Assembly (NCBI GenBank): GCA_944323845.1
Contig: CALUUA010000006.1
Span: 1 to 64,000, forward strand
Length of the DNA stretch: 64,000 bases
Direction of reading: 5' to 3'
Source: an uncultured Bacteroidales bacterium
GTDB taxonomy: Bacteria > Bacteroidota > Bacteroidia > Bacteroidales > UBA932
The position numbers and the translations under genes are program-made. Below the pieces are notes generated by a model. The model searched no databases. It was not told where the DNA came from and saw nothing but the letters and a program-made list of their open reading frames with translations. Position 1 is the stretch's first letter. Each line of letters opens with the position of its first letter. Shown piece after piece: positions 50,349 through 58,704 of this stretch.

Positions 50349-51362
50349 ATGAACCCTATTGAACTGACATGGCTTGCTGTCGTGAATCTTCATGCCGGAA
50401 GCGGGAAGACAGCCTCATTGTGGAGAGAAGCGGAACAGCTTCTGGTGAAGATGGGAATCTGTCACGACAACAAGTACACCGACTATAAATATCATGCCGC
50501 AGGCATAGCATACAGGGCGGCCGCAAAGGGCTTCCGCAGATTCATTGCCGTCGGAGGCGACGGCACCATACATGAAGTTCTCGAAGGCATTATGAAATAT
50601 GTCGGAGAATCGGCCGGTACTGTGCGGCCCGCGAGGATTTCCGACTTTACGCTTGCCGTCATCCCGATAGGCTCCGGAAACGACTGGATAAGGATTCACG
50701 GCATACATTATAATATGGAAGAGACAGTGTCCCTTATCCGCAGCGAATCCTTTATCCGGCAGGATGTGGTGAAGGTCAGCGCCCTGCCTCAGGTGCCGGA
50801 CAGCCGGCTTATGACTGCAGTTCCGGAAAATGTCTCCTACATGATGAATATCGGAGGCGTCGGTTTCGATGCCAGAGTATGCGAGAGGGTGAACATGCAG
50901 AAAGCCAAGGGGATGCGGGGCAAGCTGCTCTATATCAACGCTCTCTTGTACCTGTTCCTGTACTATCGCTCCGTCCCTATGGCCGTTTTCCTCGATGGAG
51001 AAAGGGTTTTCGAAGGGAACTGTTTTTCTGTAGCACTCGGTACGGGGAAATATTGCGGCGGAGGGCTTCGCCAGACCCCAGATGCCGTCTTCGATGACGG
51101 TCTGCTAGATCTCACTGTCATACCTCAGCAGGCGGTAGGCCGGGTCCTGCTCCATGTCGCAAGGCTTTTTGACGGCAGATTCACCACCATAAAAGGGCTT
51201 GTCTGCGGTCGCGGACGATGCGTTACGGTGGTTCCGCGCAGCGAGTCCAGAGAACTGATCGAGGTCGACGGCGAAATCATAGGGAATTCACCGGTGAGAT
51301 TCGAAGTCCTTGAAGACAGGATAAACGTCCTGCACGATTTTACCCGGGATCCACGTCGATGA
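50349..51362 (+). CDS. Diacylglycerol/lipid kinase family protein
   Basis: About 337 aa from ATG 50349 (MNPIELTW). An in-frame start at 50274 lies inside the probable -7 box TATTTTTG (50278-50285), so it is rejected. DAGK catalytic motif AVGGDGTIHEVLEG, then IPIGSGNDW. Phosphorylates diacylglycerol or a similar lipid, as YegS/DgkB proteins do. Its 3' end overlaps the convergent priA by 23 bp. Confidence 0.88.
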   Translation: MNPIELTWLAVVNLHAGSGKTASLWREAEQLLVKMGICHDNKYTDYKYHAAGIAYRAAAKGFRRFIAVGGDGTIHEVLEGIMKYVGESAGTVRPARISDFTLAVIPIGSGNDWIRIHGIHYNMEETVSLIRSESFIRQDVVKVSALPQVPDSRLMTAVPENVSYMMNIGGVGFDARVCERVNMQKAKGMRGKLLYINALLYLFLYYRSVPMAVFLDGERVFEGNCFSVALGTGKYCGGGLRQTPDAVFDDGLLDLTVIPQQAVGRVLLHVARLFDGRFTTIKGLVCGRGRCVTVVPRSESRELIEVDGEIIGNSPVRFEVLEDRINVLHDFTRDPRR

Positions 51363-53691
51363 CGATGTGTCCGCGGTATCTTTGCCTTTCCTCGAATCCG
51401 GAAACTGTTCCGGCGACGGCTTTTTTCAGCCGGTGCATCTGCCTGTCTTTCTTAAGGGTTATCCTGATTGTCCTTATGTAGTTCCCGGCGACTTTGTCCA
51501 CTGGCGGACGGTATGGCGGAGTGACGGTTTCGAAGTCGGGGACGCCGCCATTGCCTGTCAAGGCAGCCCTGATGTCCTCGGCCAGCTGCCGTGACATGTT
51601 TTCCGCCGATTCCTCTGAAGCGTCCCTCACTGTCAGGTTTATTATTCTCGTGAACGGCGGATAGCCGAAATCCTTCCTTTCCTGCATGAGAGACCCGTAA
51701 AATTCCTCTTCGCTTCCGTGGGCTAAGAGTTTGTAGACCGGATGTTCCGGTTTCGCTGTCTGGACCACGAATACGCCCGGATTGTCTCTCCTGCCGCATC
51801 TGCCGCGGAGCTGTTCCAACACCTGGAAAGCCTTTTCGTCCGCCCTGAAATCCTGAAGTCCCAGCAGAGAGTCCGCAGAAATGACGGCGGTCAGTGTCAG
51901 GCCAGGAAAATCGAAGCCTTTCGCTATGATCTGCGTCCCTACGAGGATGTCTGTCCGGCCTGAATTGAAATCCTTCACAGCGGAATCGACGGCCGGTTTC
52001 GGAGTGTCTCCGTCTATTCTGGCTATCCGGGCTTCCGGAAACAGCGCCGTCAGCTCTTCCTCTATTTTCTGCGTTCCGCTGCCTATGCCCTGAAGTTCAG
52101 CCCCGCACTTGTCGCACCTCGGGTTGAAAGGCAGGACAAGGCCGCAGTGGTGGCACATCATCCTGTCCGGGTTCTTGTGGAGACTCAGGCTCACGTTGCA
52201 ATGCGGGCATTTCGGTATTTCCCCGCACTCAGGGCACTGAAGGACAGGGGAAAACGCCCTTCTGGCCCGTAGCAGCAATATCTGTCCTCCCTTTGACATA
52301 GCCTCTTCCATCCGCGCTATGAGTTTCAGGGAAAATGACCCCTTCATTCCTCTTTTCCGCCGTTCCGCATTCGTGTCTACAATCTCCACCTCCGCATCGC
52401 CGGCGCCATAGAATCTTGTCCTGAGCCTTTGCAGCGAATACTTCCCGCACCCGGCGTTGAAAAGCGACTCCAGGGAAGGCGTGGCGGAACCGAGCACGAT
52501 ACGGCATTCGTGGATGGTGGACAGCATCACTGCGACGTCCCGGCCGTTGTACCGCGGGGCAGGGGAGTCCTGCTTGTAAGAACCGTCATGCTCCTCGTCC
52601 ACGATGATCAGCCCAAGGCCGCAATGCGGAAGGAATAGCGATGACCTTGTGCCGAGGACGATGTACGGTTTCCGGCAGGTCCGGCTTCCGCGTATCCGTT
52701 CGGCTGTCTTCCTGCGGCTCGAAGCGGTCTCTTCGGAATGGAACACCAGCAGATTTTCCCCGAAAACAGCTCTGACCCTTTCCTGCAGCTGGGAACTCAT
52801 GGCTATTTCCGGTACTAAATACAGTACGTTCTTGCCCTCATCCATCGCCTCTTTCGCCAGTTCCAGATATATCTCTGTTTTTCCCGACCCTGTAACCCCG
52901 TGGATCAGGACAGGCCTGCCTTCGGACTGGCGGACCGCCTCGCAGACCGTTTCCTGTGCCCTGTTCAGGGCAATTTTCCTGTGCTCCCTGCCGCTGTCTC
53001 CTTCTCCGTTTCCATTTCCATTTCCGAAGCTGTCTCCTTCTCCGTTTCCATTTCCGAAGCTGTCTCCTTCTCCGTTTCCGCTGCCGTCCCTGTCGGGACC
53101 GGCAATGCCGGCAAGCCTTTCTTTCAGTCTTCCGAGTTCGTCCTGCAATTTTGCTATGGCTTCCTTCAAAGCAGCCAGCTCTTTTTCTTTTTTTTGCGAA
53201 AGTTTTTCTTTTTCAATCAGGACTTTTTCTGAATTTGCGAGTTTTTCCTGTTTTTTAAGGAGTCTTTCAGCGATTTTTCCGATTTTCAGATTAAGGGTTT
53301 CTGTCATTCTCAGCCTGCGCTGCCTTTCGGCCTCCTGTCGTCTGGCCAGTTTTTCCGCCTCCGAAATTTTCATCATGGGATATGCAGCCTTGAACACTTC
53401 GCCGACTGTACACAGATAATAGTCGGCTACCATCCTCCACAGACGTATTTCTTCAGGGATTACAGGCTTCAGCCCTTCCGATTTTCCGCTGATGTCCCGG
53501 ATCTTCTCAGGCCTTGTCTCCGGGATTACTCCTGTCTGCGTTACTATTCCCTGATACGACCTGTTGGCGAAGACGACATTGACCCAGTCGCCTGTCATGG
53601 CTTCCATCCCGTCCGGTACGGAATAATACGGCTCCCACTCTATTTTGAGCGGAAGCAGAACCGTGATGTATCTTCTTTCTGTACCAGTCAT
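51340..53691 (-). CDS. priA: Primosomal protein N' (PriA helicase) with unusual insert
   Basis: 783 aa replication-restart helicase. Walker A HGVTGSGKTEIY, DEEH box VDEEHDGSY, and the zinc-binding region with four Cys pairs (CPEC, CPHC, CHHC, CDKC) are intact. Residues ~110-195 are a Lys/Glu coiled coil, and ~200-234 a GNGEGDSF repeat, where E. coli-type PriA has its winged-helix domain. The coding region shows a matching tandem DNA repeat (52990-53094). Confidence 0.92.
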   Translation of the reverse strand: MTGTERRYITVLLPLKIEWEPYYSVPDGMEAMTGDWVNVVFANRSYQGIVTQTGVIPETRPEKIRDISGKSEGLKPVIPEEIRLWRMVADYYLCTVGEVFKAAYPMMKISEAEKLARRQEAERQRRLRMTETLNLKIGKIAERLLKKQEKLANSEKVLIEKEKLSQKKEKELAALKEAIAKLQDELGRLKERLAGIAGPDRDGSGNGEGDSFGNGNGEGDSFGNGNGNGEGDSGREHRKIALNRAQETVCEAVRQSEGRPVLIHGVTGSGKTEIYLELAKEAMDEGKNVLYLVPEIAMSSQLQERVRAVFGENLLVFHSEETASSRRKTAERIRGSRTCRKPYIVLGTRSSLFLPHCGLGLIIVDEEHDGSYKQDSPAPRYNGRDVAVMLSTIHECRIVLGSATPSLESLFNAGCGKYSLQRLRTRFYGAGDAEVEIVDTNAERRKRGMKGSFSLKLIARMEEAMSKGGQILLLRARRAFSPVLQCPECGEIPKCPHCNVSLSLHKNPDRMMCHHCGLVLPFNPRCDKCGAELQGIGSGTQKIEEELTALFPEARIARIDGDTPKPAVDSAVKDFNSGRTDILVGTQIIAKGFDFPGLTLTAVISADSLLGLQDFRADEKAFQVLEQLRGRCGRRDNPGVFVVQTAKPEHPVYKLLAHGSEEEFYGSLMQERKDFGYPPFTRIINLTVRDASEESAENMSRQLAEDIRAALTGNGGVPDFETVTPPYRPPVDKVAGNYIRTIRITLKKDRQMHRLKKAVAGTVSGFEERQRYRGHIVIDVDPG
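52990..53094. repeat. Tandem repeat within priA
   Basis: Imperfect 30-36 bp repeats built from TCTCCTTCTCCGTTTCC and CATTTCCGAAGCTG, encoding Gly-Asn-Gly-Glu-Gly-Asp-Ser-Phe units on the minus strand. About three copies. Slippage in multiples of six bases would change linker length without breaking the frame. Confidence 0.8.
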
Positions 53692-57622: not shown

Positions 57623-57980
57623 CATACTACATATTAGTTATTGTGCAGCCGGGGTTTCCCGGCAGGGGAGACGGCCGGAAGTGATTCCCGCCGTCTCTTC
57701 TTTTTTCCCCTTTTCTTACCCCTCTTATTTCATCTCCTCCTTTTTTTCTCTCACTTTTTCTTCCATCTCCCTTTGTCTTCTCTCACTCTTTCATCCCCCT
57801 CTCTTTTTTGTCTTCTCTCAGTTACACCCCTCCCATACCCCCCCTCTATTCTCGGTTGCCCCTCCTTACTCCTGTTCCCACTCCTTTTTCTTCTCTCACT
57901 CTTTCATCCCCCTCTCTCTTGTCTTCTCTCAGTTACACCCCTCCTATACCCCTCCTCGACACTCTTCGATTCTTCCCTCC
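57623..57980. repeat. Polypyrimidine tract with an internal duplication
   Basis: From about 57690 to 57975 the plus strand is almost all C and T, with almost no purines for ~280 nt. A ~65-nt segment, 57777-57845, is repeated at 57890-57955 (offset 113 nt; both begin CTTCTCTCACTCTTTCATCC). Such tracts can form triplex DNA. Open frames here are composition artefacts. Confidence 0.85.
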
Positions 57981-58694
57981 GGACTAGTATCATTTTCCGC
58001 CCCAACTGCACCTAGTCCCGAGAAAATGTTCCGGACCTGTCGCAGTTTTCGTCCAAAATGCCACAGGTCCCGATATAATCCCACGGACTAGTATCACTTT
58101 CCACCCCAAATGCACCTAGTCCCGAAAGAATCGCACGGACTAGCATCATTTCCCGCCCCAACTGCGCCTAGTCCCGAGAAAATGTTACGGACCTGTCGCA
58201 CTTTCCGCCCAGAATGCCACAGGTCCCGAAAGAATCCTCCGGACTAGCATCATTTCCCGCCCCAACTGCACCTAGTCCCGCAGAAATCCCACGGACCTGT
58301 CACACTTTTTGTCCAAAATGCCACAGGTCCCGATATAATTCCACGGACTAGTATCATTTTCCGCCTCCAATGCACCAAGTCCCGCAGAAATGTTACGGAC
58401 CTGTCACACTTTTTGTCCAAAATGCTACAGGTCCCGAAATAATCCCACGGACTAGTATCATTTCCCGCCTCAAATGCGCCAAGTCCCGCAGAAATCCCAC
58501 GGACTAGCATCATTTCCCGCCCCAACTGCACCAAGTCCCGAGAAAATGTTACGGACCTGCCGCACTTTCCGCCCAGAATGCCACAGGTCCCGATATAATT
58601 CCACGGACTAGTATCATTTCCCGCCTCCAATGCACCAAGTCCCGCAGAAATCCCACGGACTAGTCACATCCCCGTCCTAAAATGATACTAGTCC
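57981..58694. repeat. Array of 14 hairpin units at exact 52-nt period
   Basis: Fourteen 38-nt units start at 57981 and every 52 nt to 58657, separated by 14-nt A-rich spacers (CGAGAAAATGTTAC, CGATATAATCCCAC and relatives). Type A has arms GGACTAG/CTAGTCC; type B has GGACCTGT/ACAGGTCC plus an inner GCA/TGC pairing. Both share a TTTCCGCCC-like loop. Order: A B A A B A B A B A A B A A. Four A units (8, 10, 11, 13) carry CAAGTCC in the right arm; the last A has an 8-bp stem and a divergent loop. No gene is supported; not a CRISPR. Confidence 0.92.
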
Positions 58695-58704
58695 GGTAAA
58701 AAAA

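Follow-up and report, generated by a model that had tools for sequence, protein, structure and literature searches.

What is a tandem array of palindromes with an exact period of 52 bp doing between two lipoprotein genes of an uncultured Bacteroidales bacterium? In the window, by which I mean the whole analysed stretch of 64,000 nucleotides, 14 units of 38 nt start at 57981 + 52n (n = 0 to 13) and are separated by 14-nt spacers without a single indel, just as the initial annotation had described, and TRF returns a period of 52 and its multiples. The array has a polarity, unit then spacer, on the minus strand, where the unit takes the form GGAC-N6-CA-N14-TG-N6-GTCC and is followed by the 14-bp spacer, giving 52 bp:

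57700..57980, minus strand: G-rich purine tract after the last unit (pyrimidine run on the plus strand)
57981..58694, minus strand: array of 14 palindromic units (38 nt), period 52 bp, from TRF and unit alignment
57981..58018, minus strand: unit 0, GGACTAG/CTAGTCC, last in array polarity
58033..58070, minus strand: unit 1, B type, GGACCTGT/ACAGGTCC
58085..58122, minus strand: unit 2, A type
58137..58174, minus strand: unit 3, A type; opens the block repeated at 58501 (87/90)
58189..58226, minus strand: unit 4, B type; folds well as ssDNA (-11.8 kcal/mol, z -4.6)
58241..58278, minus strand: unit 5, A type
58293..58330, minus strand: unit 6, B type
58345..58382, minus strand: unit 7, A type, one arm mismatch, GGACTTG/CTAGTCC
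58397..58434, minus strand: unit 8, B type
58449..58486, minus strand: unit 9, A type, arm mismatch
58501..58538, minus strand: unit 10, A type, arm mismatch
58553..58590, minus strand: unit 11, B type
58605..58642, minus strand: unit 12, A type, arm mismatch
58657..58694, minus strand: unit 13, the terminal unit and the first in array polarity; most diverged, with perfect arms of 8 bp
58695..58700, minus strand: TTTACC abutting the first unit

Two classes of arms had been reported, and both are present, with five units carrying GGACCTGT/ACAGGTCC and five GGACTAG/CTAGTCC. The other four (n = 7, 9, 10 and 12) read GGACTTG/CTAGTCC, their plus strand showing CAAGTCC with a one-pair mismatch against GGACTAG, so that the array is not fully compensated. 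The near-identity of the blocks 58137-58226 and 58501-58590 holds at 87 of 90 positions. The half-site core GGAC-N6-CA is conserved in both arms, and the inverted half-sites alternate at spacings of about 31 and about 21 bp. In helical turns of 10.5 bp these are close to three and two, and the period of 52 bp is close to five. Protein repeats had been dismissed on the ground that the period is not a multiple of 3, which is correct, and for the same reason I take a 126-aa open reading frame on the minus strand (58250-58630) as a chance occurrence. An Rfam scan of the whole window found no repeat family, two tRNAs being the sole matches; the array is unmatched in plasmid and phage collections, and its exact pattern has zero matches in viral contigs. 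Elsewhere in the window, a 30-bp tandem repeat (52993-53094) encodes a GNGEGDSF-rich linker in a long helicase-like gene on the minus strand (51340-53691), which is PriA-like by eye.

The initial annotation missed that the units belong to a repeat family spread over the whole genome, for which there is a cognate transposase. The 21-bp unit core has 37 matches in the genome with at most 3 mismatches, against 1 for a reversed control pattern. A pattern search, combined with a covariance model of the 14 window units, was run over the 2.23-Mb assembly; collected by rule, the units total 98 in 10 arrays, with 14 in the window, 10 and 12 on contig C1, 12 on C16, 5 on C19, 19 on C25, and 5, 6, 12 and 3 on C20. 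Nearly all intervals measure 52 bp, the exceptions being two of 62, one of 105, which corresponds to a skipped 39-nt unit, and one of 154, which spans a break. The arrays probably break the assembly, as several of the 10 run into contig ends. Their neighbouring genes differ, and include glycosidases, surface proteins, an LPG-synthase-like membrane protein, YhhN and the transposase (RAYT) gene itself.

This diversity of neighbours bears on the earlier proposal that the array is a recombination substrate for swapping the tails of surface-lipoprotein cassettes. The window array does lie between two lipoprotein genes, and some other arrays are near surface-protein genes. However, the repeat is found beside many unrelated genes, glycosidases and YhhN among them, which speaks against a function confined to lipoprotein cassettes, and the two window lipoproteins, which had been called paralogous, are barely similar (22% identity, E = 0.02). 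I consider cassette swapping scarcely credible; the array in the window probably reached its intergenic site through dispersal, without belonging functionally to the lipoprotein genes.

Some features recur at the borders of the arrays. On the spacer side, a purine-rich G tract occurs in 6 of 8 genome arrays (the window, L052, L053, L054, L055:17550-17620 and L057), with 100-bp purine fractions of 0.64-0.86 compared with a window mean of 0.49. TTTACC abuts the first unit in three of the six arrays with a known start (the window, L054 before 451 and L055 before 17044), no longer homology being evident at these three sites. IS200/IS605 enzymes insert beside short fixed motifs, and it is possible that TTTACC is an insertion or cleavage site, or a target mark. 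Three arrays begin, in array polarity, with a distinct unit GGACCTGGCGCATTT... (L053:9364-9401, L054:451-488 and L055:17044-17081), which resembles a conserved end unit.

On contig C20, two arrays (L055:15455-15752 and L055:16838-17549) flank a gene on the minus strand (L055:15787-16695) that encodes P0001, a protein of 302 aa without an internal stop. It is the only match in the genome to Pfam Y1_Tnp (25.1 bits, cut-off 23), a family that also matches 16 of 16 relatives. With the NCBIfam model for REP-associated tyrosine transposases, NF047646, it scores 27.1 bits against a cut-off of 80, and by its sequence P0001 is homologous to these proteins but outside that equivalog. An alignment of 82 homologues shows no variation at His65, His67, Tyr126 and Asn130, and the distance from the HUH motif to the tyrosine is 61 in P0001 and 54-61, with a mode of 59, in 18 homologues measured by motif. 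Beyond the tyrosine region follows a C-terminal extension of about 150 aa, and 2 of 16 RAYTs show a weak HTH_23 match (E 0.03); a PDB sequence search with the RAYT gave no match. The RAYT gene and the window array are on different contigs, and the array is tied to the gene by sequence identity, not by proximity.

The window array is, in my judgement, likely a tandem cluster of REP-like, non-autonomous palindromes that a cognate HUH-Y1 transposase (RAYT/TnpAREP) recognises and either copies or spreads. This reading draws on a genome-wide family, an intact transposase gene flanked by that family, a pairing of gene and array in many relatives, and a period of about 52 bp.

In the genus, RAYT homologues occur in 125 of the 151 genomes searched, often several per genome, against 2 of 294 from the rest of the order, where a slightly stricter E-value was applied. 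As the order mates are almost without homologues, the RAYTs of the genus are, judged from these searches, a lineage-specific expansion. The highest number per genome in the genus is 13 (G001-G166). When searched in 80 relatives from the genus, the repeat itself gave weak stray matches only. A first impression of a species-private repeat had to be abandoned, as the RAYT flanks in relatives show the same architecture with other sequences. I compared 81 RAYT loci, 80 from relatives with flanks of about 4 kb plus L094; these were taken from the best matches, so that the fraction bearing arrays may not represent the genus. Within 1 kb of the RAYT genes (own locus and L094 included), TRF found 31 arrays with a period between 51 and 53, exactly 52 in 23 of them, and in control flanks 2-3 kb away it found no such array. 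When shared 8-mers are counted at each lag, lags of 50-54 bp stand out at 46/81 loci within 1 kb of the gene versus 4/81 at 2-3 kb, and lag 52 at 30/81 versus 1/81; 35 of the 81 loci give no 52-bp lag signal. Clustered at 70% RAYT identity, the 46 positive loci make up 40 groups and are thus not recent copies of each other. Lags of 21, 42, 73 and 84 are slightly raised across the loci, a signal too weak to claim helical phasing beyond 52.

The units at different RAYT loci are unrelated in sequence (CATGTGGT/ACCACATG, CCCACCTA/TAGGTGGG, GGTGATGTG/CACATCACC, CCGATGGTCCA/TGGACCACCGG), and on average the consensus units of the arrays score higher as palindromes (6.8) than shuffled ones do (4.5). 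RAYT identity and array similarity are correlated (Mantel r 0.30, p 0.0015), an effect that comes mainly from a handful of RAYT pairs with the highest identity. Another species, G011, carries its RAYT palindrome in additional arrays scattered over contigs C1, C16, C18, C19 and C44; of the 30 intervals in these, 29 measure precisely 52 bp and one measures 51. Four of these arrays have exact intervals throughout (13/13, 8/8, 5/5 and 3/3). One locus, L174 (G016:C4:193798-202634), has its RAYT flanked on both sides by a tandem unit of 74 bp, not 52, in 8-9 copies each, and 74 bp is near seven helical turns.

The tandem format could suggest a neutral minisatellite, in which slippage and unequal exchange maintain a 52-bp repeat without any enzyme, and both the block duplication inside the window array (87/90) and the mixture of arm types and spacer variants agree with that. 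However, ten dispersed arrays share one period, arrays flank the genome's only Y1 transposase gene, and unrelated palindromes beside RAYTs in 40 RAYT clusters have the same period. Slippage fails to account for the dispersal, for the RAYT linkage and for a period that is kept through sequence turnover, and I find this explanation improbable. As the relatives share ancestry, conservation of the period may be partly inherited, though the palindromes themselves have been replaced; its constancy within the lineage could in part reflect inheritance plus gene conversion.

From a two-base change in one arm matched in the other, the initial annotation had concluded that compensatory change implies a selected structure. 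Taken by itself, the window array does show a perfect match at pair 5/34 (MI p = 0.001). Across the 84 units outside the window, however, this pair is Watson-Crick in 54% versus 60% expected from composition (MI p = 0.15), and pair 6/33 in 45% versus 51% (p = 0.46). Either left-arm type is joined there to either right-arm type, and stem covariation across the other nine arrays of the genome is absent, the key pairs being at or below chance. The argument for a selected hairpin thus fails within the genome. Between species it fares better. In L094, whose RAYT is 61% identical, the units also measure 38 nt and share the architecture, with both arms changed (GGACTAAC/GTTAGTCC); once these units are added to the alignment, substitutions are seen in either partner of pairs 7/32 and 8/31. 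This supports, from few independent events in the alignment, a palindrome that is maintained between species, because both arms change together between species and not because of the two-base change first noticed.

The same data speak to a processed small-RNA cluster, that is, an array giving rise to hairpin RNAs with a 52-nt periodicity. B-type units form a stable hairpin (z -4.6 as ssDNA), and on the minus strand two of them swap G-C for G-U at pair 10/29. However, mixed units such as L055:17148-17185 and L057:443-480 fold no better than shuffles, and a number of single units form no stable structure by themselves, which argues against a cluster of processed hairpin RNAs. Together with the lack of within-genome covariation outside the window and of any Rfam match, this makes a small-RNA origin very improbable.

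A different possibility is that the array binds a regulator or a chromosome-organising protein as double-stranded DNA. The spacings of 31, 21 and 52 bp are near multiples of 10.5 bp, so that the sites would face one side of the helix, and such a role would suit the half-site core conserved in both arms, the preference for periods of 51-53 in relatives and the weak HTH_23-like matches in 2 of 16 RAYTs. However, the arrays have no linked regulator gene and lie beside unrelated genes, and from species to species their palindromes are replaced wholesale, tracking the RAYT; as a separate explanation I regard this as unlikely. It would be compatible with spread by the transposase if the C-terminal domain of the RAYT were the binder, and a duplex-binding role of that domain is a live alternative or addition.

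If the array is indeed a REP-like cluster spread by its RAYT, the enzyme would recognise the units as single-stranded hairpins, and would cleave and join the palindromes as ssDNA. Tandem growth might then proceed by the insertion or excision of single 52-nt units beside resident ones, plus unequal exchange, with the period set by the enzyme, for example through two hairpins held in one complex or through five helical turns of 10.5 bp. What is recognised need not be a hairpin, as arms often mismatch within the genome and some units barely fold; it may be two inverted 12-nt half-sites instead. As a tentative extension, for which I would claim somewhat less than an even chance, the RAYTs of this lineage form a class in which palindromes turn over fully while the 52-bp length stays, the enzyme measuring a fixed length. 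It could do so by holding two hairpins or by forming a duplex-phased nucleoprotein filament, and tandem arrays would be built unit by unit.

Most members of the genus carry several RAYTs, many of them beside a fixed-length array of their own palindrome. The genus offers enzymes and their natural substrates in dozens of pairs, a ruler being built into each, and these pairs make both the copying mechanism and the length rule directly testable. They also call for caution where Bacteroidales are said to have 'covarying hairpin arrays', which may be repeats of a transposase and not RNAs.

Among known systems, CRISPR shares with the array a regular period and a partly palindromic repeat; it had already been set aside because the spacers recur, and these are shared between units, while the linked gene encodes an HUH transposase instead of Cas proteins. 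TIRYTs (TIRtrons, subclass 2.1) have a long C-terminal domain, reportedly no REP-like neighbours, and terminal inverted repeats on their flanks; many of these contain GGGGWSAS, and some are repeated and clustered (PMC3733652, PMC6006769). P0001 resembles them in its long C-terminal extension and in not being canonical REP, whereas its gene is flanked by multi-unit palindrome arrays and not by single TIRs.

REP sequences, REPINs and BIMEs form, with their RAYT (TnpAREP), the REPtron (PMC2817692; PMC3116915; PMC6006769; PMC8266576), and cleavage and joining of ssDNA have been shown in vitro for the enzymes of E. coli, Stenotrophomonas and Marinomonas (PMC8266576). As in a REPtron, short intergenic palindromes are dispersed genome-wide and flank a single-copy Y1/HUH gene, and each transposase has its own palindrome family. 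Of the REPtron hallmarks, the HUH motif and the catalytic tyrosine are present, and the repeat both flanks the gene and is dispersed, in this genome as well as in G011. In contrast to canonical REPs, the units begin with GGAC and lack a GT[AG]G foot, the palindromes of other species having other feet; they stand head to tail in tandem arrays of fixed 52-bp period where REPs form variable doublets; and the period is kept across unrelated palindromes with weak, tolerant stems. TnpAREP subclass 2.6 (RAYT group 5) is found mainly in Bacteroidetes, with atypical GTAG-less structures that flank the transposase gene and are repeated elsewhere (PMC6006769). Host and palindromes agree here, the latter being GTAG-less, atypical and found both by the gene and elsewhere, yet the HUH-Tyr distance of 61 in P0001 differs from the median of 82 in subclass 2.6, which has a 21-aa insertion, and no fixed period is described for that subclass in PMC6006769. 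My literature search for fixed-period RAYT arrays in Bacteroidales, outside of which the 2017 RAYT classification fell, found none. The system is best read as an atypical REP/REPtron in a fixed-period tandem format without the GTAG tag: its kind, REPtron-like, is known, and what appears to be new is a tandem period fixed near 52 bp that persists through total turnover of the palindromes.
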